51,792 nucleotides of DNA from Methanolinea sp. (GTDB lineage Archaea; Halobacteriota; Methanomicrobia; Methanomicrobiales; Methanospirillaceae), in the NCBI GenBank assembly GCA_025453675.1, contig JALOPW010000012.1, forward strand, positions 1 to 51,792, in the 5' to 3' direction. The notes beneath the pieces were generated by a model. That model was given only the letters and a program-made list of their open reading frames with translations. It ran no database searches and was not told the origin of the DNA. The translations under genes were made by a program, and so were the position numbers. Numbering within the stretch: the stretch's first letter is position 1; the number at the start of each line of letters is the position of its first letter. Of this stretch, positions 8,544-33,731 are shown in pieces.

Positions 8544-8554
8544 ATTCTTTTTTT
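8532..8554 (+). terminator. T-rich terminator after the site-2 protease gene
   Basis: Two oligo-T runs (about 8532-8539 and 8548-8554) follow or overlap the protease stop codon, the usual signal for archaeal termination. The second run touches the start of a dispersed hairpin repeat. Confidence 0.5.
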
Positions 8555-8625
8555 AATATGAAAACGGCTGCGCCATTTTCATGAACACATATGCGTGTGT
8601 CTCGAAGAGAATCATCTAGTTTTTT
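8554..8625 (+). repeat. Dispersed intergenic hairpin repeat, copy A (right half)
   Basis: This 72-nt stretch matches 24061-24132 with about six differences. It contains an 11-bp-arm inverted repeat at 8558-8582 (arms ATGAAAACGGC and GCCATTTTCAT, loop TGC, one mismatch), then the conserved tail CTCGAAGAGAATCAT and a T-run. It lies between the protease gene and cbiM. No transposase or target-site duplication is visible. The T-run could act as a terminator. Confidence 0.85.
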
Positions 8626-8717
8626 TTAATTCAGATTGTGAGTGAAAAGAGAAAGCATAAATATTAATCATTTTTAATTGTTCTAAAACAAATTATATTG
8701 AATATAGGTGATCTCAA

Positions 8718-9410
8718 GTGCACATTATGGAAGGTTTTCTGCCGCTGCAATGGGCGGTATTCTGGTGGATCATTGCACTCCCCTGCCTGGTATTTGGCAT
8801 CCTCCAGCTGAAGCGGGTTCTTGCTGCCGACCGCGAGGCGCTCCCCCTCCTCGGTGTGACGGGGGGGTTCATCTTCATCCTCTCATCATTGAAACTCCCC
8901 TCAGTCACCGGAAGCTGCTCCCACCCAACCGGCACCGGGCTCTCCTCGGTCTGCTTCGGGCCGTGGATCACGTCTGTCATCTGTGCAATCGTCCTCCTCT
9001 TCCAGAGCCTCTTTCTTGCTCACGGAGGACTCTCGGTCCTTGGGGCGAATATAGTCTCCATGGGAATCGTCGGCCCCCTCGCCGGATGGGGGATATACCG
9101 TGCGCTTCGCGACACAGGGGTGAATATATACTTCACCGTGTTCCTGGCCTGTGCCCTTGCCGACTTCTGCACCTACATTGTGACCTCGCTTGAACTGGCA
9201 CTCGCCTACCCGGCCGAGGTGGGGGGATTCGGGAGCTCGTTCGTCATGTTCATGGGGATCTTTGCGATCACCCAGATCCCGCTGGCGATTGTCGAGGGTA
9301 TCGTGCTCGCGCTTGTCTTCAAGTATATCGTGCAGCTCAAGCCGGAGATCCTTGTACGTCTGAAGGTATTCCCGGAAGAGAAGATCCGGGCCGCAGCGGG
9401 TGATTCCTGA
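8718..9410 (+). CDS. cbiM: Cobalt ECF transporter, substrate-binding membrane protein CbiM
   Basis: The metal-binding S component of the cobalt ECF transporter, needed to supply cobalt for corrinoids. The conserved N-terminus MHIMEGFLP, whose amino group and early histidines bind the metal in this family, is present, and the GTG at 8718 places it exactly at the start. Several hydrophobic helices follow, with HPTGTGLSS and LAHGGLSVLGAN segments typical of CbiM. A GGTGATC ribosome-binding site precedes the GTG. It is the first gene of cbiMNQO and overlaps cbiN. A C-terminal Cys-free cytosolic tail ends the protein. Confidence 0.96.
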   Translation: MHIMEGFLPLQWAVFWWIIALPCLVFGILQLKRVLAADREALPLLGVTGGFIFILSSLKLPSVTGSCSHPTGTGLSSVCFGPWITSVICAIVLLFQSLFLAHGGLSVLGANIVSMGIVGPLAGWGIYRALRDTGVNIYFTVFLACALADFCTYIVTSLELALAYPAEVGGFGSSFVMFMGIFAITQIPLAIVEGIVLALVFKYIVQLKPEILVRLKVFPEEKIRAAAGDS

Positions 9411-9715
9411 TGTGGTCCAGGTACCGTCTTGAGATAGTGGCAATTGTTGCCATCGTCTGCTTCTGCGGAGTGTTCCTGTATACCAGTTCACTCATGAATG
9501 ATGCAGAATATGCCGGGTCCGATACATTGGGATCAGCAGGAGTGGCGGAACTCACAGGGGTCTCCGAGGAAGCATTCCAACCCCTGGTACCCCAGTGGGA
9601 GCCCCCGAGCGGGGAGATTGAATCAGGGCTGTTCGCGCTGCAGGCTGCTGTCGGGGGCATATTCGTGGGATGGGTGTTTGGATACTGGAAGGGCCAGAAG
9701 AATAGAAGCACCTGA
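9410..9715 (+). CDS. cbiN: Cobalt ECF transporter accessory protein CbiN
   Basis: A 101-residue protein with two transmembrane helices (about residues 8-27 and 76-93) and an extracytoplasmic loop, the CbiN topology; the second helix region ALQAAVGGIFVGWVFGYW ends near the C-terminus. CbiN couples with CbiM for cobalt loading. Its ATG overlaps the cbiM stop (TGATG), so translation is probably coupled. Confidence 0.93.
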   Translation: MWSRYRLEIVAIVAIVCFCGVFLYTSSLMNDAEYAGSDTLGSAGVAELTGVSEEAFQPLVPQWEPPSGEIESGLFALQAAVGGIFVGWVFGYWKGQKNRST

Positions 9716-9741
9716 AAGGTACATGATATCTCAAGAGTTCC

Positions 9742-10530
9742 ATGTATGAAGAACTGCTTGAGGACATCGCCCAGCAGAATGGGTTGAGGGAGGTAAACAC
9801 CTACACCAAACTGGCCGCCGGCCTCGGGGCCATCCTCCTCTGCCTCCTCTCGACGAGTTTTGTGGCGCCCCTCTTCATTGCAGTCGTGCTCACCCTCACC
9901 CTCTTCATCATGGCGAGAATTGATCCAGGAACTTATGGGAAGATCTTCGTTGCACCGGTTCTTTTTGCACTCCTGGGCGTAAGCGTGATCATCCTGCTGG
10001 CCGGCGGAGAAGGGGCGTTCTGGAGCTGGCGCCCCCTCCCCTGGCTCTCGCTCTCCATTACAAGGGAGAGCATCAACCAGGGATTGTTTGTCTTCTTCCG
10101 GGTGCTTGGGGGGATGTCAGCCCTGATCTTCATCGCTCTCACCACTCCCATGACAGATCTCTTCGTGGTGATGAGGCGTGCCCGGTTCCCTGAGGAGGTG
10201 CTTGACCTGGCAATGATCATCTATCGCACCATCTTCGTGATCATGGCCCAGCTGGTGCTGGTCTACCAGGCGCAGTTGATGCGCCTTGGTTATAGTTCAT
10301 TCCGGGAATCTGTCCGCTCGTGTGCCACCCTGTGCGGTTCGGTCTTTATTGCAAGCTGGGAAGCAGGGGAAGACCTGATCAGGGCCATGGAGGCCCGCTG
10401 TTACGAAGGGAAGTTCGCGGTGCTGGGCGAGGGCAGGCCGATTGGCCTCCCCTCGGCCATGGCGGTCCTCTCGTTTCTCGTGGTGTCGGCGGCGATCGTG
10501 GTGACCACCCGTCAAATCACACTCATTTAG
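9742..10530 (+). CDS. cbiQ: Cobalt ECF transporter, T component CbiQ
   Basis: The transmembrane coupling subunit that links CbiM/CbiN to the ATPase. It has 262 residues and several hydrophobic segments. Family signatures are the central FRVLGGMSALIFIALTTPM and the cytoplasmic coupling helices with MRRARFPEEVLDLAMIIYR and EAGEDLIRAMEARCYEG; the last matches the ARG-type motif region that contacts the ATPase groove. It lies 26 bp after cbiN and 10 bp before cbiO. Confidence 0.94.
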   Translation: MYEELLEDIAQQNGLREVNTYTKLAAGLGAILLCLLSTSFVAPLFIAVVLTLTLFIMARIDPGTYGKIFVAPVLFALLGVSVIILLAGGEGAFWSWRPLPWLSLSITRESINQGLFVFFRVLGGMSALIFIALTTPMTDLFVVMRRARFPEEVLDLAMIIYRTIFVIMAQLVLVYQAQLMRLGYSSFRESVRSCATLCGSVFIASWEAGEDLIRAMEARCYEGKFAVLGEGRPIGLPSAMAVLSFLVVSAAIVVTTRQITLI

Positions 10531-10540
10531 GAGTTGCAGC

Positions 10541-11743
10541 ATGGGGCGAATCATCATGGAAGCACGGGATATCCGGTACCGGTATCCCAGGGGAATGGAG
10601 GCCATCAGGGGGATCAGTTTCCACATTCGCCGAGGTGAGAAGATCGCCCTGGTCGGTCCCAACGGTGCCGGGAAATCCACGCTCCTTTTGATGTTCAACG
10701 GGATGATACGCCCGGATTCCGGGACCATCCTCTTTGACAATGCCCCAATACAGTACGACCGGGCATCTTTGCGCATGCTGCGGAAAAGGGTGGGGTTCGT
10801 GCTGCAGAATCCCGACCGGCAGATCATCTCCCCCACAGTCTACCAGGACGTGGCCTTCGGGCCCACCAACCTGGGGTGTCGGCCGGATGAGGTGAAGGAA
10901 GCGGTCGAGAGATCACTCAGCCAGGTAGGACTGGCTGGATTTGAACGCCGTCCACCCCACCATCTCTCGGGTGGTGAGAAGAAGAGGGTGGCCATTGCAG
11001 GGGTGCTTGCCATGGACCCGGATGTGCTGGTCTTTGATGAACCAACCACCGGCCTTGATCCCTCCGGATCGGAGGATATCATGGAACTCCTCGAGGAGCT
11101 GAACCAGCAGGGAAAGACGGTGATCATCTCCACCCATGACATCGAACTCGCATATCCCTGGGCAGAACGGGCCATCCTGCTCCTTGATGGGAAGATCCTC
11201 CAGGAGGATGTGCCGGACGTCGCCTTCGGGAACCAGGAACTGGTGCGTAAAGCCCGGCTCTCCATGCCGACGCTGCTGGAACTGTACCTGGAACTCGAGA
11301 GGCGGGGCTTCCGTCTCCCCGAAAGGAGGCCAAGGACAGTGCTTGACATGCTCAATGTTATTGACAGGGCATTTCGAAACAAGCCCTGTTACACCGAACC
11401 CGGGGCAATCTCCCTCATTGATATCAATGCACCAGGTGAAGTCGACCTTCCGGTGTGGCGTGCCGCACATCCTGGAATCTCCATCGGAGCGATGGGAACC
11501 CGTGCCAAGCAGTATGCGGTTGATAAAAATATCCCCCTGGACTTCACGTACGGGGTCATCGACAAGTGTATCCTGAAAGCGCTGCTGGGAGAGGACAGCC
11601 TGATCATCATCACCGGGAGCATGGTGAGAAGGGTCCACGAGAGGGTGGAGGAGTTCTGCCGGGAGAACCAGGTCAGGATCCCCATTTTGGACTTATGTTA
11701 TGCCCGGAAAGGGGACGACCCGGGAGGGGAGGTCCCGGTGTGA
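10541..11743 (+). CDS. cbiO: Cobalt ECF transporter ATPase CbiO with an unusual C-terminal domain
   Basis: Residues 1 to about 260 form an ABC ATPase: Walker A GPNGAGKST near residue 40, Q-loop VLQNPDRQI near 88, signature LSGGEKKR near 145, Walker B VLVFDEPTTGLDP and the H-loop STHD. It energises cobalt uptake. Typical CbiO proteins end near 270-280 residues; this one has 400. The extra 120 residues (from about DMLNVIDRAF) read as alternating strands and helices, with SIGAMGTRAKQYAVD and LIIITGSMVRRVHERVEEF segments and four cysteines. No known domain was recognised. ATG 10541 follows AGGAG; ATG 10556 is an alternative. Confidence 0.94.
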   Translation: MGRIIMEARDIRYRYPRGMEAIRGISFHIRRGEKIALVGPNGAGKSTLLLMFNGMIRPDSGTILFDNAPIQYDRASLRMLRKRVGFVLQNPDRQIISPTVYQDVAFGPTNLGCRPDEVKEAVERSLSQVGLAGFERRPPHHLSGGEKKRVAIAGVLAMDPDVLVFDEPTTGLDPSGSEDIMELLEELNQQGKTVIISTHDIELAYPWAERAILLLDGKILQEDVPDVAFGNQELVRKARLSMPTLLELYLELERRGFRLPERRPRTVLDMLNVIDRAFRNKPCYTEPGAISLIDINAPGEVDLPVWRAAHPGISIGAMGTRAKQYAVDKNIPLDFTYGVIDKCILKALLGEDSLIIITGSMVRRVHERVEEFCRENQVRIPILDLCYARKGDDPGGEVPV

Positions 11744-11758
11744 CGAGGGTGGAACGGT

Positions 11759-12118
11759 ATGGTTGATACGACGTTCCGGGCTGACAGGGAGACGCTCAGC
11801 GCGGCGTTCTCACTGGTCTTCCGCCAGGGCCGTGCTCCCCCGTCCTGCCCGAGCCCCTGCGAATCAGAACTCCTGAACTTTATCCGGGACAGGGTGCCGG
11901 CGGCATCTCCTGCCGCGTGCAGGGATGCACTCATCCGCGTCCGGAAGCTCTCCAAAGACGTGTATACTGTCTGTGATCAATTCAGGGAAGGCCTCTTTGG
12001 AAGCGGGGACACGGCACAGGTGGCAGCAATGAAGGCCCTAATGGAGAAGAACCCCGGGTTCTCCGAAGAGGAGTACCGGGTTGCGTTTTCAGTCGGGATG
12101 ATGTGGACGGCGTTCTGA
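11759..12118 (+). CDS. Unknown protein downstream of the cobalt transporter
   Basis: A 119-residue protein, not recognised. It has four cysteines (in SCPSPCESELL, PAACRDAL and YTVCDQF), appears mostly helical and soluble, and has no signal peptide or membrane helix. The C-terminus NPGFSEEEYRVAFSVGMMWTAF is hydrophobic. It begins 15 bp after cbiO on the same strand with a GAGGGTGG site, so it is probably the last gene of the cobalt operon. A role in cobalt handling is a guess from position. Confidence 0.7.
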   Translation: MVDTTFRADRETLSAAFSLVFRQGRAPPSCPSPCESELLNFIRDRVPAASPAACRDALIRVRKLSKDVYTVCDQFREGLFGSGDTAQVAAMKALMEKNPGFSEEEYRVAFSVGMMWTAF

Positions 12119-12224
12119 ATAGTGAGAAATCCCCTTCATGCAGGGGTTCGAGGTCGGCCAACACTTTTCACAGATCGTGAGGGATCGATTTTTCCCTCTT
12201 CAAAGAGCAGAGGACGAGAACACT

Positions 12225-12830
12225 TCATTCGTCCTTCAACCTCTCCAGTACCCTGACAATTTTGGCTCCTTTCTCCCTCGCCTCCGCAAGCGCAGACGGG
12301 TGGCCCCGGATCCCCTTGTGGCTGTCCATATCATTGGCGATGATATTGTCGTAGTATTCAAAACCCAGGGTATTGAAGAAGGCGGTGACAGCCGGGAATG
12401 CCGCGTCAAAGACATTGTCCCAGGAGAGTCCGGCGGTAGAGATGAAGATGCCCTTGTGGTGCTGTGTGTGCTCGTTGGTGAAATAGAGATTTTTCAGGAT
12501 GAATTTCCTGGCCCAGATGAACTGCGCCCGGTCGATGAGGCCTTTCAGTTCTGCCGTGATCCCCATGCTGTAGATGGGGGAGGCGACCGCCAGGCAGTCG
12601 GATGCAAAGATGCGGTCAAAGAGCGGGATTGCATCGTCCTTCACGATGCACTCTCCTGTCTTGTGACACGCATTGCAGCCCCGGCAGGGGGTGTAGTCAA
12701 GGTCTTTAAGGATGACCTTCTCGACCTCGCCGCCGGCGGCATTCGCACCCTCGAGGAATGCATCAAGGAGAGTCTCGGTGTTTCCGTGGCGGTGGGGGCT
12801 CCCGGAGAGGCCGAGGACCTTCACTGTCAT
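12225..12830 (-). CDS. Iron-sulfur flavoprotein (Isf-type), second of a tandem pair
   Basis: A flavodoxin-fold protein of 201 residues. The FMN phosphate loop is GLSGSPHRHGNTET near the N-terminus. A compact cysteine cluster CRGCNACHKTGEC (Cys49, 52, 55, 61; C-X2-C-X2-C-X5-C) matches the 4Fe-4S motif of the Isf family, methanogen proteins that pass electrons from ferredoxin to FMN and can reduce oxygen or peroxide. ASPIYSMGITAELKGLIDR is the second flavin-contact segment. It starts 3 bp after the stop of its paralogue at 12834-13448, so the two are co-transcribed and arose by duplication or parallel recruitment. The electron acceptor is not known. Confidence 0.9.
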   Translation of the reverse strand: MTVKVLGLSGSPHRHGNTETLLDAFLEGANAAGGEVEKVILKDLDYTPCRGCNACHKTGECIVKDDAIPLFDRIFASDCLAVASPIYSMGITAELKGLIDRAQFIWARKFILKNLYFTNEHTQHHKGIFISTAGLSWDNVFDAAFPAVTAFFNTLGFEYYDNIIANDMDSHKGIRGHPSALAEAREKGAKIVRVLERLKDE

Positions 12831-12833
12831 GGC

Positions 12834-13448
12834 TCACTGCTCCAGTCTCTTCCGGAGCTCCGCGATGACCTGTTGGCCTAACTGCTCCGCATCTGCCTTT
12901 GCGGTGGGGTGCGAAAGGATTGCCCCCTTCTCGTCAACTCCGTTGACCATCAGATAGCGGATGTCCTTATCCCTGATATCAACGACGTGGAAGAAGCACT
13001 TCACAGAAGGGACCGCCCCGTCAAAGACGTAGTTCCAGTTCTGGCCGGCAGTGGAGAGGAATATCCCAAGCCTCTTCCCCTTCCGCTCCAGCGGGACCAC
13101 GGGGAGCTTGAGGACAAATTTGCGGGACCGGAAGACCTGGAAACGGTCGATCAGGGCTTTGGCCTGTGCGCATATTCCCATGCAGAAGATCGGGGCAGCG
13201 AGGATGATGCAATCGGCTTCTATGATCTTGTCGTGCAGGACATCCATCCCGTCCCGTTGCACGCACCTGTTCAGGGTCTCGCAGGCGTTGCACCCCCTGC
13301 AGGGGTTCACGTTGGCATCTGTCAGGGGAATCTTCTCGATGACCACGCCCTCTTCCTTCTCCATGGAAGAGAGCACCCAGTCGAGCAATGTCTCCGAGTT
13401 CCCTCCCCTCCTCGGGCTCCCGGCAAACGCAAGGACTTTGATCTCCAT
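12834..13448 (-). CDS. Iron-sulfur flavoprotein (Isf-type), first of a tandem pair
   Basis: A paralogue of the following gene: 204 residues, flavodoxin loop AFAGSPRRGGNSET, cysteine cluster CRGCNACETLNRC (Cys50, 53, 56, 62) and AAPIFCMGICAQAKALIDR. The motif spacing is identical to its neighbour. A full Isf-like redox protein with FMN and a 4Fe-4S cluster is expected, acting in the cytoplasm. The upstream neighbour on the same strand is a peroxiredoxin ending 75 bp away, so the pair may belong to the same oxidative-stress transcription unit. Confidence 0.9.
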   Translation of the reverse strand: MEIKVLAFAGSPRRGGNSETLLDWVLSSMEKEEGVVIEKIPLTDANVNPCRGCNACETLNRCVQRDGMDVLHDKIIEADCIILAAPIFCMGICAQAKALIDRFQVFRSRKFVLKLPVVPLERKGKRLGIFLSTAGQNWNYVFDGAVPSVKCFFHVVDIRDKDIRYLMVNGVDEKGAILSHPTAKADAEQLGQQVIAELRKRLEQ

Positions 13449-13523
13449 TACTCTTGCGTTTCACCCCGGGAGAAGAAAAAAGGTTGGAATCCTGTACCTC
13501 CATGGGGTGGGGAGAAAAAGTGG

Positions 13524-14165
13524 TTAGATAGTCTTGAAACAGAGGTACCAGTCCTTGCACTCGTACCCCTCGGAGAGACGCTTGTCCATCTCCGCCTTGT
13601 TCTTTGGCGCCGGCACCACGACCTTCTCGCCGGGTTGCCAGTTTGCAGGGGTAGCGACCCCGTACTTGTCGGTGGTCTGCAGGGATTTGACCAGCCGGAT
13701 GATTTCAGGCATGTACCGCCCACTCGCGAGCGGGTAGTAGATCATTGCCCGGAGAATCCCCTTGTCGTCAATGAAGAAGACTGCCCGGATGGCAGCCGTG
13801 CTACTCTGACCGGGATGGATCATCCCGTACTTCTTTGCCACTTTCATGTCCAGGTCTGCGATGATGGGGAATGGGATGTCAACACCCATCTTCTCCTTCA
13901 CGTTCCGTATCCACGCCAGGTGGGAGTGGACCGAGTCAATAGAAAGGCCCATCAACTGGACATTAAGGGATTTCAGTTCATCCGCAATTGCGGTGAACGC
14001 GATGAACTCGGTGGTGCACACCGGGGTGAAGTCTGCAGGGTGCGAGAACAGCACGAGCCACTTCCCCTTGAAGTCAGAGAGCTTTACCATACCCTGGGTG
14101 GTGAGGGCCTCGAAGTCAGGGGCCGGTTCACCGAGGATGGGCATTGAACCAAATTCACCGCACAT
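13524..14165 (-). CDS. Peroxiredoxin, Prx6/archaeal type
   Basis: Reduces hydrogen peroxide and organic peroxides. The peroxidatic cysteine is in PADFTPVCTTE (Cys50), followed by the Prx6-type long C-terminal half with DKYGVATPANWQPG and a tail YECKDWYLCFKTI holding Cys203 and Cys209. A pair of C-terminal cysteines is known in archaeal Prx6 enzymes as resolving residues. The start at 14165 has GGAG about 10 nt upstream; an internal ATG at 14144 (MPILGEPAPDFEA) fits the family start better, so the first seven residues are uncertain. It lies 7 bp after the AhpD-like gene. Confidence 0.95.
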   Translation of the reverse strand: MCGEFGSMPILGEPAPDFEALTTQGMVKLSDFKGKWLVLFSHPADFTPVCTTEFIAFTAIADELKSLNVQLMGLSIDSVHSHLAWIRNVKEKMGVDIPFPIIADLDMKVAKKYGMIHPGQSSTAAIRAVFFIDDKGILRAMIYYPLASGRYMPEIIRLVKSLQTTDKYGVATPANWQPGEKVVVPAPKNKAEMDKRLSEGYECKDWYLCFKTI

Positions 14166-14172
14166 GCTGTCA

Positions 14173-14517
14173 CTACTCCTTCAAAATCTCATCGAGCTGG
14201 GCCTTCCCGTATACATAGGCAGGCATTCCTGCAAGGAGGAAGGCAACTCTCAAGGCTTCTTCTACTTCCTTCTTTTTAATCCCCAGGTTCGCGGCACCCG
14301 CGAGCTGGGCCCTGGTGGCGTGCTGGTCGCGGAGCGATGCGGCAATGGCAATGGCGATCAGTTTCTTGGTCTTCCGGGTGAGTGCCCCGTCGTCCCAGAT
14401 GTGCCCCTCGAGTTTCATCACCATCTCATACATCTGGGGGTCTTTCTCGGCGAGATCCTTGAAGAATTTCGGGACCTTGCCGATCATCCGTTCCAGATCC
14501 TTGGTGTCTTTTGGCAT
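14173..14517 (-). CDS. Carboxymuconolactone decarboxylase/AhpD-like protein lacking the CxxC motif
   Basis: A 114-residue all-helical protein of the CMD superfamily (the DDGALTRKTKKLIAIAIAASL segment is typical). Many prokaryotic members are AhpD-like peroxidases or disulfide reductases with a C-X2-C then a histidine after this helix. Here the site reads RDQHATRAQLAGAANLG: both cysteines are replaced and the protein has no cysteine at all, so thiol-based AhpD chemistry is not possible. It sits between a desulforedoxin-domain gene and a peroxiredoxin, so an accessory or altered function in the same stress unit is likely. Confidence 0.88.
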   Translation of the reverse strand: MPKDTKDLERMIGKVPKFFKDLAEKDPQMYEMVMKLEGHIWDDGALTRKTKKLIAIAIAASLRDQHATRAQLAGAANLGIKKKEVEEALRVAFLLAGMPAYVYGKAQLDEILKE

Positions 14518-14524
14518 ACAGGAA

Positions 14525-14650
14525 TCACTTCTTCAGTTTCATTGGCTGGCCGCAACAGACGAGTTCTCCGCCGCCTACAACCTTCACCACTACGACATTT
14601 CCGCAAATCTCACACTCGAATTGCTGTCCTTCCTTTGATACGTTCACCAT
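14525..14650 (-). CDS. Stand-alone desulforedoxin/desulfoferrodoxin N-terminal domain (41 aa)
   Basis: A very short gene. The product begins MVNVSKEGQQFECEICGN and has four cysteines as CEIC (13, 16) and VCCGQPM (32, 33). This C-X2-C...C-C pattern is the Fe(Cys)4 centre of desulforedoxin and of the N-terminal domain of desulfoferrodoxin (superoxide reductase). The catalytic superoxide reductase domain is absent. The ATG follows a strong GGAGGGT site. It is the first gene of an apparent operon with the AhpD-like protein and peroxiredoxin, and likely supplies electrons in the same detoxification route (inference). Confidence 0.88.
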   Translation of the reverse strand: MVNVSKEGQQFECEICGNVVVVKVVGGGELVCCGQPMKLKK

Positions 14651-14672
14651 TCTTACCCTCCTATGAAGAATT

Positions 14673-14695
14673 CCCGGTTATAATGCATTACCGGG
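14673..14695 (-). promoter_or_regulatory. Inverted repeat over the promoter of the desulforedoxin-peroxiredoxin unit
   Basis: The arms CCCGGT (14673-14678) and ACCGGG (14690-14695) flank a TATA-like core, and the centre holds a perfect 10-bp palindrome TAATGCATTA (14681-14690). It lies 23 bp upstream of the desulforedoxin ATG. A dimeric repressor bound here would block TBP, so this is a candidate operator; the regulator is unknown. Confidence 0.5.
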
Positions 14696-14760
14696 GGTCT
14701 GATGTGTTCTGAAGGCGATACCCCTGGATTTCGCCCTGTCTGTGAAGAAAAAATGAAAGA

Positions 14761-14997
14761 TTACTGGTTGCTCTTTCCGCGCTTGGGCGGGTGCATCGCA
14801 TCCTCCGGGGTCTTGATATCCGGACGGATGTGGGTCATGGGGAAGCACTGGTACTCTTCACAGGCGCACTGCGGGCATTTCCTGAGATCCTGCTCTGAAG
14901 CGTCGAGCTCCATTTCTCGTCCGCAGTCAATGCAGACGTATTTGCCGGGGCCAACTTTCTGCCCGGCCTTTGCCTTCTCGGTCAGCTCTATCACCAA
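14761..14997 (-). CDS. Small zinc-ribbon protein
   Basis: A 78-residue protein with YVCIDCGREMEL near residue 20 and RKCPQCACEEY near residue 40, two C-X2-C knuckles that would bind zinc (or iron as in rubredoxin-like folds). A lysine/proline-rich tail follows. No enzyme domain is present. A TATA-like ATTATATATGG (about 15018-15028) is centred close to 27 nt upstream of the ATG and no ribosome-binding site is seen, pointing to a leaderless mRNA. It lies between redox genes, but its role is unknown. Confidence 0.75.
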   Translation of the reverse strand: MVIELTEKAKAGQKVGPGKYVCIDCGREMELDASEQDLRKCPQCACEEYQCFPMTHIRPDIKTPEDAMHPPKRGKSNQ

Positions 14998-15147
14998 CTC
15001 GCTATATGGGAACAGAGATTATATATGGCTTTTGTTCTTCCCCTTTAAATCGGCATATTTGGGGCATTCAGCACGAATTGAAGGTAATTGCGATCAATTC
15101 CAGGCAGCTGCACCATCCGAAGCTATTATGGAAGCCGGGGTCACCTG

Positions 15148-16425: not shown

Positions 16426-17048
16426 AGGATGCTTGAGCAGTAACGTGCGTCCCCATGTTAAAAAAATTGCATGATTCTCTTCGGGATACATGAATAGAAG
16501 ATGAACATGCCGGAAGCATTTTCATATTCACTCAAAATGCGCTCCATTTCAGTTTGAAAGGCATAATACATGGGGATTGTGTATAAAATTTTTTTAGAGA
16601 AAAGTGATTACTTCTGCACCCCCTGATTGGAATCCAGGGCATGGCAGTTGAACTGAGATCTGTTCAGGTACGTTATCGGAGAGTGGTCATCAGGCCTGCT
16701 TCAGGGTCGGACTGCATCGATGTGTCCGGATATCCTCTCTCTTTACATCTGCCCCGCACCTGGTGCAAAAAAAGTGGGAGGTCTCCCCGGGACGAAGCGA
16801 CTGGCAACGGTATCGTATCATACTATACTATCTGTCGCACATGAGCAAATATGCTTTCCAAGAGAAGTATGGTGCTCATTGTGTGAGGACCAGGTATATT
16901 TTTCGAGTATACCCATGGAAAACCCACAGGAAGGCCGCGTGAAAAAACCTGCAGTGAGTCCAATGTACATGAGAGAAGTCGGATGTCCTCCCTGATCTGT
17001 CCGTATGTTTCTTAAGGGCTCTCTTCCATTCACTTTTCAGGAGGCAGG
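16426..17048. other. 623-bp gene-free region between radC and the MFS gene
   Basis: Two small open frames on the plus strand (16641-16844 and 16720-16995) show no recognisable protein, no ribosome-binding site and poor composition, and are not called. The radC-proximal part contains an inverted fragment of the dispersed repeat (16471-16483, with a poly-A/T stretch beside it). A TTTCTTAAGG element at 17008-17017 is the probable TATA region for the MFS gene. Nothing else is seen. Confidence 0.6.
16459..16490 (-). repeat. Inverted fragment of the dispersed repeat upstream of radC
   Basis: Read on the minus strand, 16471-16483 is CGAAGAGAATCAT, identical to the tail core of the repeat copies at 8554 and 24061, and is likewise followed within a few bases by a run of T. 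The hairpin part is missing. It lies just upstream of the chosen radC start. This is a short match, so common descent is likely but not certain. Confidence 0.5.
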
Positions 17049-18305: not shown

Positions 18306-18360
18306 CGAACGCGATTCCATCACCCTTGATCCCCCAATGTGAGCCGGCCGGGAAGAATAC

Positions 18361-18370
18361 CTATTTATGG
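18361..18370 (+). promoter_or_regulatory. TATA box of the rubrerythrin gene
   Basis: TATTTATG (18362-18369) is centred about 29 nt before the rubrerythrin ATG at 18395, and the gene has no ribosome-binding site, so transcription probably starts at or next to the start codon. Confidence 0.6.
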
Positions 18371-18394
18371 CACCCACTCTCCAACAGTACGACC

Positions 18395-18895: not shown

Positions 18896-19006
18896 TACAC
18901 AAATAACCCGTTTTTATTCATTTCCTCCTCCCCCGTGTGACACAGCGGGACCTGGCTGTATGCGGGGCCGGCTCTCATATCTTGATATAGGTGGGGGCCC
19001 ACAGGT

Positions 19007-19501: not shown

Positions 19502-19663
19502 TCTTTTTTTCAGTCATGGTCTTCCCGCAACAGGCACAGCAGAGGTTGGGGCTGGCATCACTCTTTATTCGTAAAGAGAGGAATTCCGACGCGATGCAGG
19601 TACCGAAAAGGACTGCCTCCCGCTCCACCACTTTTATTACCCATCCCCTGCAAACTCCCCTGC

Positions 19664-22071: not shown

Positions 22072-22108
22072 CAACCTCACCTCCATCGGTTCGGGATTCG
22101 TATCGGAC

Positions 22109-22120
22109 CAGTTATAGGCC
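22109..22120. promoter_or_regulatory. Shared TATA element between the methyltransferase and dolichol-kinase-like genes
   Basis: TTATA with flanks (GTTATAGG, 22111-22118) lies 28 bp from the ATG at 22142 on the plus strand and 28 bp from the ATG at 22086 on the minus strand. No other TATA-like sequence exists in the gap. Bidirectional use is inferred. Confidence 0.5.
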
Positions 22121-22141
22121 CCGGGAGTCCATACTACCCGT

Positions 22142-22693: not shown

Positions 22694-22757
22694 TAGCCAT
22701 CACTTTCTCCCTGCACCCTGCAGGTTTATCTGGGCCGGCGAAGAGAAATTTTCAACC

Positions 22758-23966: not shown

Positions 23967-23988
23967 TTTCTCGGTCACACGTCTGTCA

Positions 23989-24132
23989 TTTTTCTAATGA
24001 AAATGGCTTCGCCATTTTCATGATTTATGTCCGAAATCCTGAAAGGAGTTCATAGTGTGTTAATATGAAAATGGCTGCGCCATTTTCATGAATGCATATG
24101 CTTGTGGCTCGAAGAGAATCATGTAGTTTTTT
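23989..24132 (+). repeat. Dispersed intergenic hairpin repeat, copy B (complete, two hairpins)
   Basis: The fullest copy, 144 nt. The left half (23989-24072) matches 33521-33604 with only two differences. It holds two perfect hairpins with 11-bp arms ATGAAAATGGC / GCCATTTTCAT: 23997-24021 (loop TTC) and 24065-24089 (loop TGC). The right half (24061-24132) matches copy A at 8554-8625 and ends in CTCGAAGAGAATCAT and a T-run. It lies downstream of nreA and upstream (antisense) of tfrB's end. No coding capacity is seen. Confidence 0.92.
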
Positions 24133-24325
24133 CCTAGTCTGTTGATCACTGGTTTGACATTCACCAAAACGGGGATCGTCGCTGCTTTATCAGGAGTGAT
24201 AAATCTCATTCTTTCGCGAATATTCACTGGTCACCGAACCGCCGCGGGGGCATCTCCTGGGGGAGGGGTTATTCTACCAGTTTTAACCCTGTTCAGACCG
24301 AAAAAGAAAGAGAAAAACCCATTTA
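24133..24325. other. Remainder of the nreA-tfrB intergenic region
   Basis: Together with copy B this gap is 359 bp. An open frame at 24142-24390 has no ribosome-binding site, runs into the end of tfrB in antisense and shows no recognisable domain, so it is not called. An A-rich run near 24300-24316 would read as oligo-T on the minus strand just after the tfrB stop and may serve as its terminator. Confidence 0.5.
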
Positions 24326-27411: not shown

Positions 27412-27436
27412 CTTATTATAAGGTGGGTCATATACG

Positions 27437-27448
27437 TACATAAATAGC
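27437..27448. promoter_or_regulatory. Shared TATA element between tfrA and lysC
   Basis: CATAAATAG (27439-27447; TATTTATG on the other strand) lies 30-32 bp from both start codons, 27411 and 27473, and is at the centre of the 61-bp gap. A second AT-rich element, TTATTATAAG at 27413-27422, could instead serve lysC with a leader of about 28 nt. Confidence 0.5.
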
Positions 27449-27472
27449 TAGGAAAGGACAGCGTGAGCCCAG

Positions 27473-28873
27473 ATGAGGTTTTTGATGAAATTTGGCGGCA
27501 CTTCCGTGGCAGACGGGGCAAGTCTCTCCCGGGTGGTGGATATTGTGGAATCATCCTACGTTGCGGGAAACGAGGTTGCGGTGGTGATCTCAGCCCAGCG
27601 GGGGGTCACGGACCAGCTGATCACCATGGCCACGGAGCTGGCCAACAGCCCTGATTCGAGTGGAATCGGGCCGTTTATCAACTCATTGCGCGTTCGGCAC
27701 GGGAAGGTGCTCCTCGAGTCTGCCGAGGACTACGCCGACGAGGTGGGCATCCTCCTCGAGGAGCAGCTCTGCAACCTCGAGAATATCCTCAACGCAGTGC
27801 ACAACCTGCGGGAACTCACCCCGCGCTCCCGCGACTACATCATCACCTTCGGTGAGCGGCTCAACAGCCTGGTGGTGTCAGCTGCATTCCGGCAGCGGGA
27901 AATCCCTTCCACGACCCTTGACGGGTGCGAGGCCGGGATCGTCACTACCTCAAACCACGGCGAGGCCATGGCCCTCCCCGAAGGTGAAGGGAAGATCAGA
28001 AGCCGGGTGCTCCCTCTCCTCACCGGCATGGTCCCGGTGATCATGGGCTTCATGGGCTGCACAGAGAAGGGGATCGTCACCACACTGGGGAGGTCAGGAT
28101 CAGATTACTCGGCCGCCATAATTGGGGCAGCCATCGGAGCGGACGAGATCCTGATATGGACCGACGTGGACGGGATCATGACCTCAGACCCGCGGCTGAT
28201 CCCCGATGCGCGGGTGATCCAGACCATCTCCTACCTTGAGGTGATGGAGCTCTCCTACTTCGGGGCCAAAGTGATGCACCCCCGCTCCATCGAGCCGGCA
28301 ATGAAGAAGAACATCCTGGTACGGGTGAAGAACACCTTCAATCCCGACCACCCGGGAACTGCCATTGTCCGGGGGGAGAAGAGGGATAGCCGGGTAGTCA
28401 AGGCCCTCACCTATATCGAGAAAGTGGCCCTGGTCAACATCTGCGGGGCTCAGATGATAGGAAGGCCCGGGGTGGCGAAGGCAATATTCAGCCAGCTCGC
28501 TGACAGGGATGTGAATGTGATGATGATCTCCCAGGGCTCCTCCGAGGCCAATATCACCCTGGTGATAGAGGAGAGCCAGGAAGACACGGCCAGGGAAGCG
28601 CTGGCCGTCCTCTTGAACCAGGGAATGGTCAGGGAGGTGACCACCAACAGGGACGTCTGCGCTGTCGCCGTGGTGGGTGCGGGTATGGCCGGGGCCAAGG
28701 GTACCGGTGGCAGGATATTTACCGCGCTCGGGAATGGCGGGGTCAACGTGATGATGATCTCCCAGGGCTCCTCCGAGGTCAACATCTCTTTTGTGGTCAC
28801 CCAGGCAGACGGGCCAAAGGCCATGCGCATCCTGCACGATGAATTCCGGCTCTCAGAGGAGGACGATGAGTAA
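27473..28873 (+). CDS. lysC: Aspartate kinase with tandem ACT domains
   Basis: First step of the aspartate pathway (lysine, threonine, methionine). The kinase domain starts MKFGGTSVADG, with LGRSGSDYSAAIIGAAI and IWTDVDGIMTSDPR. Residues about 315-466 are two ACT domains; each contains NVMMISQGSSE, and the DNA for this segment is a 31-bp exact repeat (28517-28547 and 28748-28778). ACT domains usually bind lysine or threonine for feedback control. Length 466 residues is typical. It overlaps purM by 8 nt. Confidence 0.96.
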   Translation: MRFLMKFGGTSVADGASLSRVVDIVESSYVAGNEVAVVISAQRGVTDQLITMATELANSPDSSGIGPFINSLRVRHGKVLLESAEDYADEVGILLEEQLCNLENILNAVHNLRELTPRSRDYIITFGERLNSLVVSAAFRQREIPSTTLDGCEAGIVTTSNHGEAMALPEGEGKIRSRVLPLLTGMVPVIMGFMGCTEKGIVTTLGRSGSDYSAAIIGAAIGADEILIWTDVDGIMTSDPRLIPDARVIQTISYLEVMELSYFGAKVMHPRSIEPAMKKNILVRVKNTFNPDHPGTAIVRGEKRDSRVVKALTYIEKVALVNICGAQMIGRPGVAKAIFSQLADRDVNVMMISQGSSEANITLVIEESQEDTAREALAVLLNQGMVREVTTNRDVCAVAVVGAGMAGAKGTGGRIFTALGNGGVNVMMISQGSSEVNISFVVTQADGPKAMRILHDEFRLSEEDDE

Positions 28874-29861
28874 TCCCCATACCTACCGGGAGGCGGGGGT
28901 TGACATCCGCCTCGAGGCGAATGCCATCTCTGCACTGGTGCAGAATCTCTCGTACCGGAGGAAGGGAAACTATCCCATGATGGGCGGGGTGGGCCATTTT
29001 GCCGGGCTAATCGACTTCGGCCACCTGGTGCTCGCCCTCACCGTTGACGGTGTGGGGACCAAGATGCTGGTGGCGGACCGACTACAGGACTGGTCGACGG
29101 TGGGGATCGACTGCATGGCCATGAACGTGAACGATCTCTATGTGATGAACATGGAGCCGGTGGCATTCGTCGATTATATCGCTACTGATCGCCTCTCTGA
29201 AGAGCAGATGGCCCAGATTGGGGTGGGGCTGAACGAGGGGGCGAGGCTCGCCAACGTCAATATCGTTGGTGGAGAGACCGCGACACTCAAGGGCCTGGTC
29301 AACGGCCTGGACCTTGCAGGGACCTGTGTCGGGGTGCAGGAGAAGGGAAAAGTAATTACCGGGGAGCGAATTCGCCCGGGAGACCTGGTGGTGGGAATCC
29401 CCTCATCCGGGATCCACAGCAACGGGCTCTCGCTTGCACGGCGTGTGGTGGAAGGCCAGGATGCATGGGAAGAGACCCTCCCTTCCGGGAGGAGTATTGG
29501 AAGAGAACTCCTGGTGCCTACCCGTATCTACCACGAAGTGCTCACTCTGACCGCGGAGACCGAAGTGCATGGAATGTGCCACGTCACCGGTGGGGGGCTC
29601 CTCAACTTCTCGAGGCTGACAAGGTATGGATTTGAATTCACGGACCCCATGCCCCCGCACGAGATATTTACCTGGATCCAGGACCACGGCGAGGTGGAGA
29701 ACGCCGAGATGTTCAGGACATTCAACATGGGCATGGGGTATGCCTTTGTGGTCCCGGAAGGAGCAGAAGGTCCCATCCTCGCAAAGGTCAGCGGGAGCAG
29801 GGTAGTGGGAAGCGTCACTGCCCGTCCTGGAATATGGTTGAATGGGGCAGAAATACGATAA
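28866..29861 (+). CDS. purM: Phosphoribosylformylglycinamidine cyclo-ligase (AIR synthetase)
   Basis: Closes the imidazole ring in purine synthesis using ATP. The 331-residue protein has the PurM/AIRS core: LVLALTVDGVGTKMLVA, IDCMAMNVNDLYVMNMEPVAF, GGETATLKGLV and GLPSSGIHSNGLSLAR-like GIPSSGIHSNGL. Start MSNPHTYREAG at 28866 follows GAGGAGG and overlaps the end of lysC by 8 nt, so the two genes are coupled although their pathways differ. T-rich sequence follows the stop. Confidence 0.96.
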   Translation: MSNPHTYREAGVDIRLEANAISALVQNLSYRRKGNYPMMGGVGHFAGLIDFGHLVLALTVDGVGTKMLVADRLQDWSTVGIDCMAMNVNDLYVMNMEPVAFVDYIATDRLSEEQMAQIGVGLNEGARLANVNIVGGETATLKGLVNGLDLAGTCVGVQEKGKVITGERIRPGDLVVGIPSSGIHSNGLSLARRVVEGQDAWEETLPSGRSIGRELLVPTRIYHEVLTLTAETEVHGMCHVTGGGLLNFSRLTRYGFEFTDPMPPHEIFTWIQDHGEVENAEMFRTFNMGMGYAFVVPEGAEGPILAKVSGSRVVGSVTARPGIWLNGAEIR

Positions 29862-29872
29862 TTTTTTTACCC
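29862..29872. terminator. Oligo-T run between convergent purM and ZPR1-like genes
   Basis: A run of seven T directly after the purM stop (about 29863-29869) separates it from the stop of the convergent gene at 29867. It fits an archaeal terminator for purM. Confidence 0.4.
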
Positions 29873-30418
29873 GGCATTTTCCTGGTCTGATCCGCATTCG
29901 ATACCAGTGATGGGATAGATCCTGGCCCTATCGCCCAGGATGGCAGAATTTCCGGTAGGATCGTCAATACGGAGCGTTACGGAGAGCCGTCCTTCCTTCA
30001 CGTCTGCAAGCCGATCCCGCAGGTTCCTGGCATTCTTCCGTTCCTCCTCATCCTCCGTCCAGCCCATAACATTGGCAATGACTGCATCGATGCGGTTGAG
30101 GACCCCCTCCACGTTGGAGACAAAACCCTCGCAGGCCGGGCCTGGATTGACATGCACTCCCAGCTCCGGGATGCTGACGATCCCGTTCATGCTCCGCACT
30201 ACACGGGTATTCAGGTCATCAGGGGACAGGATTGTCAATTCCCACCGGGATGGCTCGGCATTCTTCAGCAGCTGGGTGTCCACAAAGCGGTACCCGCAGA
30301 CCGGGCAGCGGGCGGACATGATCAGTATTCCGGAAAAATAGGGGATATCTTCTGTCTGGTAGAGATACTCTATCTCCGTGCCGCAGGCCGGGCAGGGCCC
30401 GGGAACCACCTGCCGCAC
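29867..30418 (-). CDS. ZPR1-type zinc-finger protein
   Basis: A 183-residue archaeal ZPR1-domain protein: a four-cysteine zinc finger PCPACGTEI...RCPVCGYR near the N-terminus followed by the beta-rich ZPR1 domain (SRWELTILSPDDLNTRVVRS, GIVSIPELGV, GPACEGFVSNVEGVL). Eukaryotic ZPR1 assists folding of elongation factor 1A; the archaeal role is not established, though a link to aEF1A is an attractive inference. A GTG start follows the sepF stop by 3 nt, so it is co-transcribed with sepF. Confidence 0.92.
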   Translation of the reverse strand: MRQVVPGPCPACGTEIEYLYQTEDIPYFSGILIMSARCPVCGYRFVDTQLLKNAEPSRWELTILSPDDLNTRVVRSMNGIVSIPELGVHVNPGPACEGFVSNVEGVLNRIDAVIANVMGWTEDEEERKNARNLRDRLADVKEGRLSVTLRIDDPTGNSAILGDRARIYPITGIECGSDQENAG

Positions 30419-30421
30419 TCT

Positions 30422-30793
30422 TCAGCTGACCCCGCCGATCTTGTCTCTCGAGATCTTCACGGAATTCGGGGTGATTACCACGTACCGCTGGTCTCCAAGC
30501 CCGATGATGTCCCCGTTGACATCCTTTGCCACTTCTTTCAGATCCTTGAGGACCCGTTCGTACATGACCTTGTCAGCCTTGAGCTTGGCGATATCCACGA
30601 TGACGATGTTTCCATTGTAGATCTCGTCCTTGATACGCGGACTGTCCTTGATATCTCCCACGGTGGCAATTTTCACGAACAGTGCCGGGGCACCTGCCTC
30701 AGCCTCCTCGAACGCCTCGAGGTCGAGGTCCATGTAATCGTCTTCAGATGAAGGGGTACTCTTTCCAAGAAGGGTATCCAGGAATTTTACCAT
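30422..30793 (-). CDS. sepF: Archaeal SepF, FtsZ anchor of the division ring
   Basis: Links FtsZ to the membrane in archaea that have FtsZ but divide without FtsA. The 123-residue protein has a short amphipathic membrane-binding N-terminus (MVKFLDTLLGKS), an acidic linker and a C-terminal DUF552 domain with LFVKIATVGDIKD, NGNIVIVDIAKLK and GDIIGLGDQRYVVITP. A TATA-like ATTTATTTAAT (about 30812-30822, on the minus strand TTAAATAAAT) is centred 25 nt before the ATG with no ribosome-binding site: probably leaderless. The ZPR1-like gene follows at once. Confidence 0.93.
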   Translation of the reverse strand: MVKFLDTLLGKSTPSSEDDYMDLDLEAFEEAEAGAPALFVKIATVGDIKDSPRIKDEIYNGNIVIVDIAKLKADKVMYERVLKDLKEVAKDVNGDIIGLGDQRYVVITPNSVKISRDKIGGVS

Positions 30794-30810
30794 GGGAAAA
30801 ATTGTCTATT

Positions 30811-30824
30811 GTCATTTATTTAAT
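30811..30824 (-). promoter_or_regulatory. TATA box of sepF
   Basis: A TTAAATAAAT element read on the minus strand, about 25 nt upstream of the sepF ATG at 30793, with AT-only flanks; it is the only candidate core promoter for the sepF-ZPR1 pair. Confidence 0.55.
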
Positions 30825-30914
30825 AGTATCTATGCAAAATGGGATATTCCCCGTCCGGAAGCCTGGATTTGACGATCGACTGTTCGTGGTGCGGCGAAAA
30901 AGCGCCTGGGTTTC

Positions 30915-31412
30915 TTACATCTCCAGGGACCAGAGATCATCCCCCACGTAATATTTGGTCTTGATCACCTTTCCGTTACGCTTCTCCCGCATCTCTCCGG
31001 CATCAAAAAGGGCGATTCCCAGGGCGATCGGCTTTCCGTGCCGCTCCTCCACCACCTGGACGGGCATTCCCGCCCGGATGTCATCCGAGATGGAGGTGAT
31101 CCCGGGGCGCATCACATCCGCACCCTTGATCACAAAAGGTACCGCGCCCGAGTCGACGACAACCCTGCGCCCGGGGAAGGGATGTTCAAGGAGACCCCGC
31201 AATGTGGGAAAGACCATCCCCTGAAGGTGCATAAGCATTGGTTTCTTGTCTATCAGGTAGAGGGAGATCCCGGCATCGGTCTCCAGGATCTCCATCCGGT
31301 CTCCGGGAAAGAGGCTGGCGGCCTCTCCTATCTGCTCCCGTAATCCTGCCATAAGCTCCTGCGCCTGGGATCTCCGTATGGTATGCCGTTTTCTCGGGGT
31401 GATTCGCGACAT
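30915..31412 (-). CDS. PUA-domain RNA-binding protein (MCT-1-like)
   Basis: A 165-residue archaeal protein with an N-terminal DUF1947-type region (RKRHTIRRSQAQELMAGLRE) and a C-terminal PUA domain (GRRVVVDSGAVPFVIKGADVMRPGI, VQVVEERHGKPIALGIALF), related to eukaryotic MCT-1/eIF2D N-termini. Probably binds structured RNA in translation. The start is uncertain: ATG 31412 has AAAGGA directly against it, too close to work well; ATG 31457 would add 15 residues and could be leaderless from a weak GATATC element. Confidence 0.9.
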   Translation of the reverse strand: MSRITPRKRHTIRRSQAQELMAGLREQIGEAASLFPGDRMEILETDAGISLYLIDKKPMLMHLQGMVFPTLRGLLEHPFPGRRVVVDSGAVPFVIKGADVMRPGITSISDDIRAGMPVQVVEERHGKPIALGIALFDAGEMREKRNGKVIKTKYYVGDDLWSLEM

Positions 31413-31574
31413 TCCTTTCACATGGATATTGCTGCCATTTCCCAAAAAAACATCCATTGTATCCCAGGACGGGATGTTTTTTGATATCTCTTCAATATTG
31501 CCCTTATTGTGTGAAAAGGTGGCGTGGAGAAGCGTTTGGAATCTCCAGTACATTTAAGTATACGCATTACGCAC

Positions 31575-31582
31575 ATATATTA
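31575..31582 (+). promoter_or_regulatory. TATA box of the LSm-eL37-purF operon
   Basis: ATATATTA lies about 33 nt before the LSm ATG at 31612, predicting a very short leader. It is the best TATA match in the 200-bp gap to the divergent PUA gene. Confidence 0.6.
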
Positions 31583-31593
31583 CCCCAAAGTGA

Positions 31594-31842
<249 letters not shown>

Positions 31843-31887
31843 GCAGCATATACAAGAGAAGGCACAATTCAAAAAAGAAGGTGAATC

Positions 31888-32070
31888 ATGTCGAAAGGAA
31901 CTCCATCAATGGGAAAGAGGCATCATAAGACGCATATTGCCTGTCGCAGGTGCGGAAGCGTCTCCTATCACCTGCGTCACAAGACCTGCTCAGCCTGCGG
32001 ATTCGGCAAGAGTACAAAGATACGCGGGTATAAGTGGACGATGAAGAGGCCGAAGGTCCCCACCCATTAA
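31888..32070 (+). CDS. rpl37e: Large ribosomal subunit protein eL37
   Basis: A 60-residue basic ribosomal protein with a zinc finger built from CRRCG and CSACGFG. The N-terminus [22 protein letters not shown] and the segment [12 protein letters not shown] are typical of archaeal eL37. It lies 45 bp after the LSm gene and 9 bp before purF. Confidence 0.97.
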
Positions 32071-32079
32071 AGGCCTCCT

Positions 32080-33501
32080 ATGTGCGGAATCGTTGGCATC
32101 AGGGATGCTGGCGGTGTTTCCTTCTCCATTTATTATGCGCTCTACGCGCTCCAGCACAGGGGGCAGGAGAGCGCGGGGATCTCCACTTTTGACGCCACCA
32201 GGCTGCATAAGCACAAAGGCCAGGGCCTTGTGGCTGAAGTGTTCGATTCTTCCATTCTCGAGACCCTGGAAGGAAATGTGGGTATCGGTCACGTGAGATA
32301 TCCCACCACCGGTGCGAACCGCCCGGAGAATGCCCAGCCGTTCAATTTTGTCTATCGTGATCATATCATCTCCCTCGCCCACAATGGCAACCTGGTGAAT
32401 AGCCGGGAACTGAGAGACGAATACGAGTGCCGGGGCCAGACTTTCTGTTCCACCACTGACACGGAACTGATTGCAAAGGTGATCACCGAGGAGATGAGCC
32501 ACTCCGGGTGCGTCGAGGATGCGGTTCACCGCTGCATGCGAGTGTTGAAAGGCTCCTATTCCGTGGTTTTGATGATCGACGGGGTGCTCTACGGTTTTCG
32601 CGATCCGCTGGGTATCAAGCCCATGTGCATCGGAAAGGCGGGGCAGGGCTTGATCCTTGCATCCGAGAGCGTGGCCGTCGATGCCCTGGCGGGGACATTC
32701 ATCCGTGATGTGGCCCCCGGAGAGCTCGTCTGCATCGATGACCAGGGTATGCGCAGCATGCAGATCGCAATCTCCCGTAGAAAGGCCCACTGCATTTTCG
32801 AGTACATCTACTTTGCCCGTGCAGACGCGGTCCTCGATGGGGCGCTGGTCTACGATGTCCGGCTGAAAATCGGGCAGAAACTCTTTGAAGAGGCTCCTGT
32901 GGAGGCGGATTCAGTCTGCCCGGTGCCAGACTCAGGTACTGCCTATGCTATCGGGCACTCAGCCCGGTCAGGCATACCATTCGTGGAGAGCCTCCTGAAG
33001 AACCGGTATATGGGCCGGACTTTTATCATGGCCACCCAGAAAGAGCGCGAGATGGCGGTCCGTATCAAGCTGAACCCCATTCGGGAACACCTGGACAACA
33101 AGTCTGTGGTGCTGGTGGATGACAGCATCGTGCGGGGAACCACGTCCCGAAGGATCATCGGGATCATGCGGGATGCCGGTGCACGTGAGATCCACATGCG
33201 CATCGGCTCCCCTGCTATCAAGGCCCCCTGTTACCTCGGGGTTGACATGCCCACCCGGGAGGAGCTGATCGCAAGCGACAAGGTACAGGAGGAGGTTCGG
33301 AAGAGGATCACCGCCACCTCTCTCCATCACATCTCCATCGATGCCCTGGTGGAAGCCATAGGGATAGACCAGGCCGATCTGTGCACAGGCTGCCTGACAG
33401 GATGTTACCCGGTGGAGATCCCTGGTGAAGAGAGCAGCCCCCCTCCGGTTGATTTCCTGGACGGGACGTATCAGACCCGGCTTGAGTCGTTCGGTTCCTG
33501 A
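32080..33501 (+). CDS. purF: Amidophosphoribosyltransferase
   Basis: First committed step of purine synthesis, making phosphoribosylamine from PRPP and glutamine. The class II glutamine amidotransferase domain begins MCGIVGIRD, so the catalytic Cys2 needs only removal of Met and there is no propeptide. Further motifs are ALQHRGQESAGI, the PRPP loop VVLVDDSIVRGTTSRRI and the C-terminal cysteine cluster CTGCLTGCYP, which in related enzymes binds a 4Fe-4S cluster and could make the enzyme oxygen-sensitive. Length 473 residues. AAGG lies 7 nt before the ATG. Downstream is a copy of the dispersed repeat. Confidence 0.97.
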   Translation: MCGIVGIRDAGGVSFSIYYALYALQHRGQESAGISTFDATRLHKHKGQGLVAEVFDSSILETLEGNVGIGHVRYPTTGANRPENAQPFNFVYRDHIISLAHNGNLVNSRELRDEYECRGQTFCSTTDTELIAKVITEEMSHSGCVEDAVHRCMRVLKGSYSVVLMIDGVLYGFRDPLGIKPMCIGKAGQGLILASESVAVDALAGTFIRDVAPGELVCIDDQGMRSMQIAISRRKAHCIFEYIYFARADAVLDGALVYDVRLKIGQKLFEEAPVEADSVCPVPDSGTAYAIGHSARSGIPFVESLLKNRYMGRTFIMATQKEREMAVRIKLNPIREHLDNKSVVLVDDSIVRGTTSRRIIGIMRDAGAREIHMRIGSPAIKAPCYLGVDMPTREELIASDKVQEEVRKRITATSLHHISIDALVEAIGIDQADLCTGCLTGCYPVEIPGEESSPPPVDFLDGTYQTRLESFGS

Positions 33502-33520
33502 AAAGGTTCTGGATTCCTAT

Positions 33521-33731
33521 TTTTTCTAATGAAAATGGCTTCGCCATTTTCATGATTTATGTCCGAAATCCTGAAAGGAGTTTATAGTGTGTTTATATGA
33601 AAATTGCATTCTTGTCTTCATGCATTATGCGTGTTGCCCGAGAATGTGGCACATATAGGGTCAATAGGCACACAGCTCCGTCATTCTCACAAAGTATGCC
33701 TGTGTCTCAAAGGGAATCATCGTGTTCTTTC
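33521..33731 (+). repeat. Dispersed intergenic hairpin repeat, copy C (left half intact, right half degenerate)
   Basis: Positions 33521-33604 match copy B with two differences in 84 nt, including the perfect hairpin at 33529-33553. The second hairpin has decayed (GAAAATTGCATTCTTG instead of the palindrome). Further on, 33695-33731 resembles the repeat tail (TGTGTCTCAAAGGGAATCAT, then T-rich), so the right half seems to have been interrupted or lengthened by about 65 nt. It fills the space after purF. Confidence 0.85.

Follow-up and report, generated by a model that had tools for sequence, protein, structure and literature searches.

The window, a 51,792-nucleotide (nt) stretch of contig JALOPW010000012.1 from Methanolinea sp., carries dispersed intergenic repeats that combine hairpins with a conserved, T-tailed end, and the locus raises the question of what kind of element these repeats are and how they have spread. 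The first-pass annotation offered a miniature inverted-repeat transposable element (MITE) or repetitive extragenic palindromic (REP)-like element, a family of small structured RNAs, or portable transcription terminators. The combined results make it very likely that the repeats derive from insertion sequences (ISs) of the IS110 family, as non-autonomous miniature elements. The MITE-like option was right in kind, with ends that are those of IS110-family elements, a parent family that had gone unrecognized. Published work is cited below by PubMed Central number.

IS110-type ends and the RNA of intact IS110 elements

Read in the orientation of the IS, the repeat begins with an IS110 left end (AAAAAACTACATGAT...), which is the reverse complement of the T-tailed end (the tail), and closes with an IS110 right end, TTTTCAT-nnn-AAA. 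The two intact IS110s of genome G040, a relative among the Methanomicrobiales, and the intact IS110 of G045, a sister species, have the left end AAAAAACTACATGATGCCC and the right end TTTTCATACGAAA in common, and their flanks diverge at these points. In G040, which is assembled as one contig and is 99% complete, the two intact elements are accompanied by seven short copies of 72-78 nt at seven different sites, each composed of a left end and a right end, and 94-100% identical to the query (itself one of the seven). G045 contains 17 further matches besides its intact IS110, and the nine that were read measured 71-73 nt. All 16 short copies read in the two genomes close with TTTTCAT-AC(G/A/C); the triplet of the resident elements, ACG, is present in 14, with one ACA and one ACC. 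An autonomous partner with the same ends is therefore present in the same genome in G040 and G045, and none was found in the window's genome. A second query gave matches in 7 of 10 chosen genomes, and the four matches in G122 were all left ends followed by the RNA region described below, i.e. longer copies.

Two side observations concern these genomes. Four near-identical left ends with RNA region occupy four sites of the one-contig genome G122 (L260-L263); they are probably recent IS110 copies and useful for target mapping. A CRISPR-like array (clustered regularly interspaced short palindromic repeats; repeat starting GTTGCATACGACCTTCCAGC) directly adjoins one of the intact IS110s of G040 (L086).

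Relatives of the IS110 protein, fragments included, occur in 25 of 81 genomes; the protein of the IS in G009 has DEDD_Tnp_IS110 and Transposase_20 domains (PF01548 and PF02371 in intact relatives). The repeats themselves contain no DEDD recombinase gene, and no inverted repeat between tail and left edge was seen by eye in the clusters read. Profiles built only from the window's genome were searched against 14 IS110 loci. The tail profile matched the left-end regions of five IS loci and the short element L203 (best E 4.8e-8), the profile of linker W matched three loci, in G063 and G067 (best E 5.2e-11), and that of linker Z matched L200 and L203 of G008 (best E 2.1e-8), against best E values of 0.5-5.3 for block-shuffled sequence. 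L195 (G063) and L174 (G067) run from left end through hairpin and W linker to the RNA region; L173 (G063) has kept the W linker and has no tail. G008 illustrates how a draft assembly can lose the recombinase: there, a Z-type left end is followed by the RNA region and an IS110-like start, where the contig stops.

Between the IS110 left end and the start codon lies a conserved stretch of ~130 nt. Its predicted RNA fold pairs 96% of cells across 14 sequences (34-42% in slid controls), 12 of the 20 pairs change on both sides, and the covariation score was reached by none of 500 shuffles. The predicted RNA has an internal loop between two stems, as has been published for bridge RNAs (PMC11208160). 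A three-base island in this loop-bearing RNA, followed by AAA, reproduces the triplet that TTTTCAT and AAA enclose in the right end of its own IS at 30 of 33 nt in 11 ISs (8 complete matches), three of the 14 aligned ISs being left out as having no readable right end. Counting only the eight distinct pairs, the agreement is 22 of 24 nt (p 1.5e-5), and the island is presumed, from this sequence match, to be the left donor guide. Rfam models gave no match other than tRNA, either in the window or in six IS110 loci.

Copies in the window and across the genome

The copies in the window and their parts are as follows.

8548-8554, plus strand: T-run before copy A, the presumed target side, adjoining the IS right-end side (sequence read)
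8555-8625, plus strand: copy A, a minimal one-hairpin element, with its hairpin at 8558-8582
8555-8564, plus strand: right-end side of copy A, AAT-ATGAAAA
8583-8625, plus strand: tail of copy A, the reverse complement of an IS110 left end
16461-16525, minus strand: copy D, a degenerate one-hairpin element with tail, upstream of radC
23989-23993, plus strand: T-run before copy B
23994-24132, plus strand: copy B, with the right-end triplet CTA at 23994-23996
23997-24021 and 24065-24089, plus strand: hairpins 1 and 2 of copy B
24022-24064 and 24090-24132, plus strand: linker H and tail of copy B
33520-33525, plus strand: T-run before copy C
33526-33726, plus strand: copy C, with CTA at 33526-33528 and a hairpin at 33529-33553
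from 33554, 33622-33661 and 33694-33726, plus strand: linker H, linker Y and the degenerate tail that closes copy C

The first-pass description of these copies proved accurate. Positions 23989-24072 and 33521-33604 differ at 2 of 84 positions and 24061-24132 and 8554-8625 at 6 of 72; both hairpins of copy B are perfect (11 of 11 arm pairs), the tail core lies on the minus strand at 16471-16484 with one mismatch, and a Pfam scan of ten neighbouring proteins found no transposase. The copies are likewise intergenic, as judged from genes called with our own codon-usage script: the copy at 16461-16525 reaches into radC in the longest mechanical reading of that gene (to 16491) and stays clear of its called start (16425). 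In the first hairpin, 11 of 11 arm pairs are kept in copy C and 10 of 11 in copy A. The next best ungapped match of the 84-mer in the window reaches 41 of 84 positions (mean 19.9), and four tail cores and four hairpins were seen where shuffles give 0.35 and 0, respectively. The full copy is flanked by T-runs at both ends, one before the left hairpin and one at the tail.

The further copies that a full-genome search had been proposed to reveal are numerous. The window's genome (G000), a draft of 1,838,665 bases in 53 contigs estimated to be 94.4% complete, gave 50 matches to a 156-nt query and 104 matches to the hairpin pattern with up to three mismatches, the reversed control pattern giving none. 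In a genome collection from which the window's own or a very near genome was possibly left out, the tail pattern hit eight stretches, all in Methanolinea metagenome-assembled genomes, and it had no match in viral contigs.

In the 246,142 bases surveyed around copies (the window among them), the recurring modules fall into 81 clusters, some with just one module. The hairpin arms change together (cores GGC/GCC, CAC/GTG and GCC/GGC), and the remaining modules comprise the linkers H, W and Y and the end pieces tail, X and Z. Seen in tail orientation, the left edge is mostly a T-run, three bases (often CGA or CTA) and ATGAAA, whichever module comes first, and the right edge is either the end of X or a tail that brings its own T-run; in IS orientation, the left edges read TCG or TAG in 35 of 58 cases. 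A T-run of at least four lies within 14 nt of 47 of the 58 definable left ends (12 of 70 elements, with no definable start, were left out of this count), compared with 9 of 166 ATGAAA motifs outside the elements and, downstream of stop codons, 983 of 7886 positions (overlapping). The 50 tailed elements divide into 18 between convergent genes, 15 in tandem with and 8 in tandem against the genes, and 9 in divergent regions.

Two further observations were made in the surroundings of the repeats. Longer relatives with extra hairpin-like stretches (GGGTAAAAATAATATTTTACCC type) occur in the window's genome at C35:3700-4720, C36:4900-6300 and C44:92800-93620 (L019, L103, L113), and may be less deleted elements. 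A GC-rich intergenic motif of the type CCGCCGCC...GGACGCCCC...GGCGGC recurs near repeats in C35 and C44 (L019, L113) and is present too in L088 (G002) and L098 (G032).

The palindromic, intergenic, mosaic and abundant character of the repeats, together with a GTAG near the tail as in REPs (PMC3733652), would also suit REP sequences or bacterial interspersed mosaic elements (BIMEs) moved by a REP-associated tyrosine transposase (RAYT) or by an IS200/IS605-type (Y1, HUH) transposase. The Y1_Tnp domain was found in none of the 61 family genomes searched, while the control was positive in 5 of 14 named genomes; the window's own genome gave none either, and the GTAG does not stand at the foot of the long hairpin. 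An origin from REP/RAYT or IS200/IS605 elements, the latter of the kind seen in palindrome-associated transposable elements, was rejected on this count; we regard it as extremely improbable, and the REP option in its strict sense is not supported.

Insertion sites, nesting and the weight of the evidence

Twelve elements were read against the relative G009 in search of empty sites. At the orthologous sites of two of them (contig 13:17798 and contig 28:9504), G009 has an uninterrupted T-run without element; the other ten gave no clean junction, their flanks being too diverged, partnerless or of other content. At the site of copy B, behind the orthologous Nre gene, G009 carries nine T without an element, and a module after Nre was seen in none of ten relatives with readable sequence. 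In the intergenic region of copy C (33529), G009 has a complete IS110, whose left end resembles the reverse complement of the repeat tail. As a separate observation, the gap between Nre and the next gene in several relatives (L132-L139, L144) holds a small conserved reading frame that is absent from the window's genome, where the repeat occupies the gap (window 23967-24325). By eye, a target-site duplication of the T-run looked convincing in a few copies; this reading was discarded, as the bases that separate T-run and ATG follow the element type.

These sites also bear on the proposal that the repeats are portable terminators or 3' untranslated region RNA elements that selection maintains for the sake of host gene expression. 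Hairpins followed by a T-run fit such a role, and a same-strand gene lies upstream of 33 of the 50 tailed elements, in many cases with the element 10-60 nt past the stop codon. But the tail points with rather than against its neighbours in only 15 to 8 cases between same-direction genes, 9 of 50 elements lie in divergent regions, the left T-run pre-exists in the relative at two sites, the right T-run is part of the IS left end, and no module follows Nre in the ten relatives. Termination as the primary nature of the repeats is thus not supported and seems very improbable; a structured-RNA or termination effect may exist as a secondary layer on their nature as mobile elements.

Copies also sit within copies. 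Module X, 65-68 nt in clear cases, has the left end AAACGCACATGAG and the right end TTTTCAT-ACC-AAA. When the flanks of X are joined, a hairpin with at least 9 of 11 pairs is regained in 20 of 58 candidates, and in 18 of the 22 with AAAA at the right flank, which places the landing site of X in the AAAA of ATGAAAATGGC. In 25 of the 58, the right flank begins with AA, mostly of linker H, and no hairpin is restored; here, X appears from the sequence to act as an alternative left end. The loose pattern also admitted ordinary tails, and at least two of the matches, inside the window, are due to chance; all are kept in the denominator of 58. The short composite L203 (G008:C11, ~570-800 of the locus) joins the 5' half of the bridge-RNA-like sequence to a tail and has no recombinase gene, so that a Z-type left end with half an RNA lies inside a tail-type element. 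Nesting accounts for much of the mosaic.

Alternatively, an independent REP-like family could serve merely as a landing site for IS110, as the REPs of E. coli do for IS621 (PMC11208160), in which case repeat sequence would border the IS and not belong to it; X and the Z-type piece of L203 do sit inside other copies. Against this reading, which we consider improbable, the tail-like sequence is itself the moving terminus in G040 and G045, shared by three IS copies whose flanks diverge there, the short copies of these genomes consist of a left end plus a right end, and the RNA of the IS matches the right-end triplet.

Several points weigh against an IS110 origin. No IS110 recombinase was found in the window's own genome (a 94%-complete draft), nor an orphan bridge RNA at E values up to 1 (150 of 324 candidates scored); both were lost, or are missing from the draft. 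The profiles of linkers H and Y and of module X matched none of the 14 IS110 loci, and the left end of X resembles the tail by eye only. The RNA fold was derived from the alignment used for its test, and one of its five measures (further pair types) did not exceed shuffles. Comparison of the resident guide with short copies gave agreement by eye in two of four definable cases in G009 and in none of the copies read in G008 and G021. The test of the target guide was weak, with 9 of 12 matches at the first base (p 0.02) and no significance for two and three bases. Finally, 11 of the 58 left ends have no T-run of four, and no start could be defined for 12 of the 70 elements.

A model of mobilization in trans

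The IS110 origin suggests a model in which the miniature elements keep a left end of ~35-43 nt and a right end of ~13 nt (TTTTCAT-nnn-AAA), often along with the palindromes and linkers that adjoin the left end, and lack both the DEDD recombinase and the bridge-RNA gene. The palindromes probably descend from subterminal structures of the parental left end. Recombinase and bridge RNA would be supplied in trans by an IS110; a short copy would be excised as a circle with abutted ends, giving the junction TTTTCAT-nnn-A-run-ACTACATG, and the circle would recombine into an A/T-run while the donor guide reads the right end. The parent of the Methanolinea repeats would have the donor guide ATTCGAAA or ATTAGAAA and a left end matching the tail. 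Elements with neither gene nor RNA could persist because only the ends are needed, and nesting, together with exchange of left-end types (tail, X, Z), would build a BIME-like mosaic. In these archaea, mobilization in trans is an inference, as this assembly yielded neither an IS110 gene nor a bridge RNA. There is precedent in the laboratory, where a 22-bp donor suffices for IS621 with RNA in trans (PMC11208160) and the noncoding RNA of ISEc11 and of ISEc21 can likewise be provided in trans (PMC11187229).

Bridge RNAs became known in 2024 through IS621 (PMC11208160). Like IS110 elements with a bridge RNA or seekRNA (IS621, ISEc21), the repeats have shared left and right ends and no visible terminal inverted repeats, and their intact relatives agree with IS621 and ISEc21 in recombinase family, in a noncoding RNA upstream of the recombinase and in a guide that matches the IS end. 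In contrast to these systems, the repeats lack recombinase and RNA, are often ~70-270 nt long, reach tens of copies and are nested; their target is an A/T-run, whereas that of IS621 is a REP, and the published short donors moved in trans were laboratory-built (PMC11208160, PMC11187229). The archaeal MITEs SMN1 and SM3A of Sulfolobus (PMC3718332) are similarly short, gene-less and dispersed, and carry the ends of an autonomous relative. MITEs of this type are described with terminal inverted repeats and direct repeats, whereas the repeat ends are not inverted repeats and their recognition would be RNA-guided; the passages of PMC3718332 credit no MITE to IS110. REPs and BIMEs (PMC2817692, PMC3733652) share the palindromic, intergenic, mosaic and high-copy character, but the clade has no Y1 transposase and the repeat ends match IS110. 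No description of miniature IS110 elements was found in literature on IS110, bridge RNA, seekRNA and MITEs, in a search without ISfinder and most subscription papers that is no proof of absence. Literature on MITEs in Methanomicrobiales and on repeats in Methanolinea yielded nothing on this hairpin-repeat family.

On balance, we favour a broader view, held with less confidence than the IS110 origin itself, of the repeats as archaeal miniature passengers of bridge-RNA recombinases: bare donor sites of ~70-80 nt and longer, in tens of copies, that would borrow recombinase and RNA in trans, track the donor guide of their host, home to T-runs such as terminators and nest into REP/BIME-like mosaics. 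Gene-less donors seem to have multiplied beside intact IS110s, in what would be a natural version of the laboratory trans experiment, and they offer natural material for studying the minimal donor, how donor guide and end coevolve, and the choice of A/T-runs as targets. The pairs of short element and intact IS110 are ready-made for testing RNA-guided recombination from archaea. The finding also offers an origin for a family of intergenic palindromic mosaics in archaea that have no Y1 transposase. If the broader view is true, each copy would also be a standing donor site, and the DNA between copies could be inverted or deleted by an active IS110.

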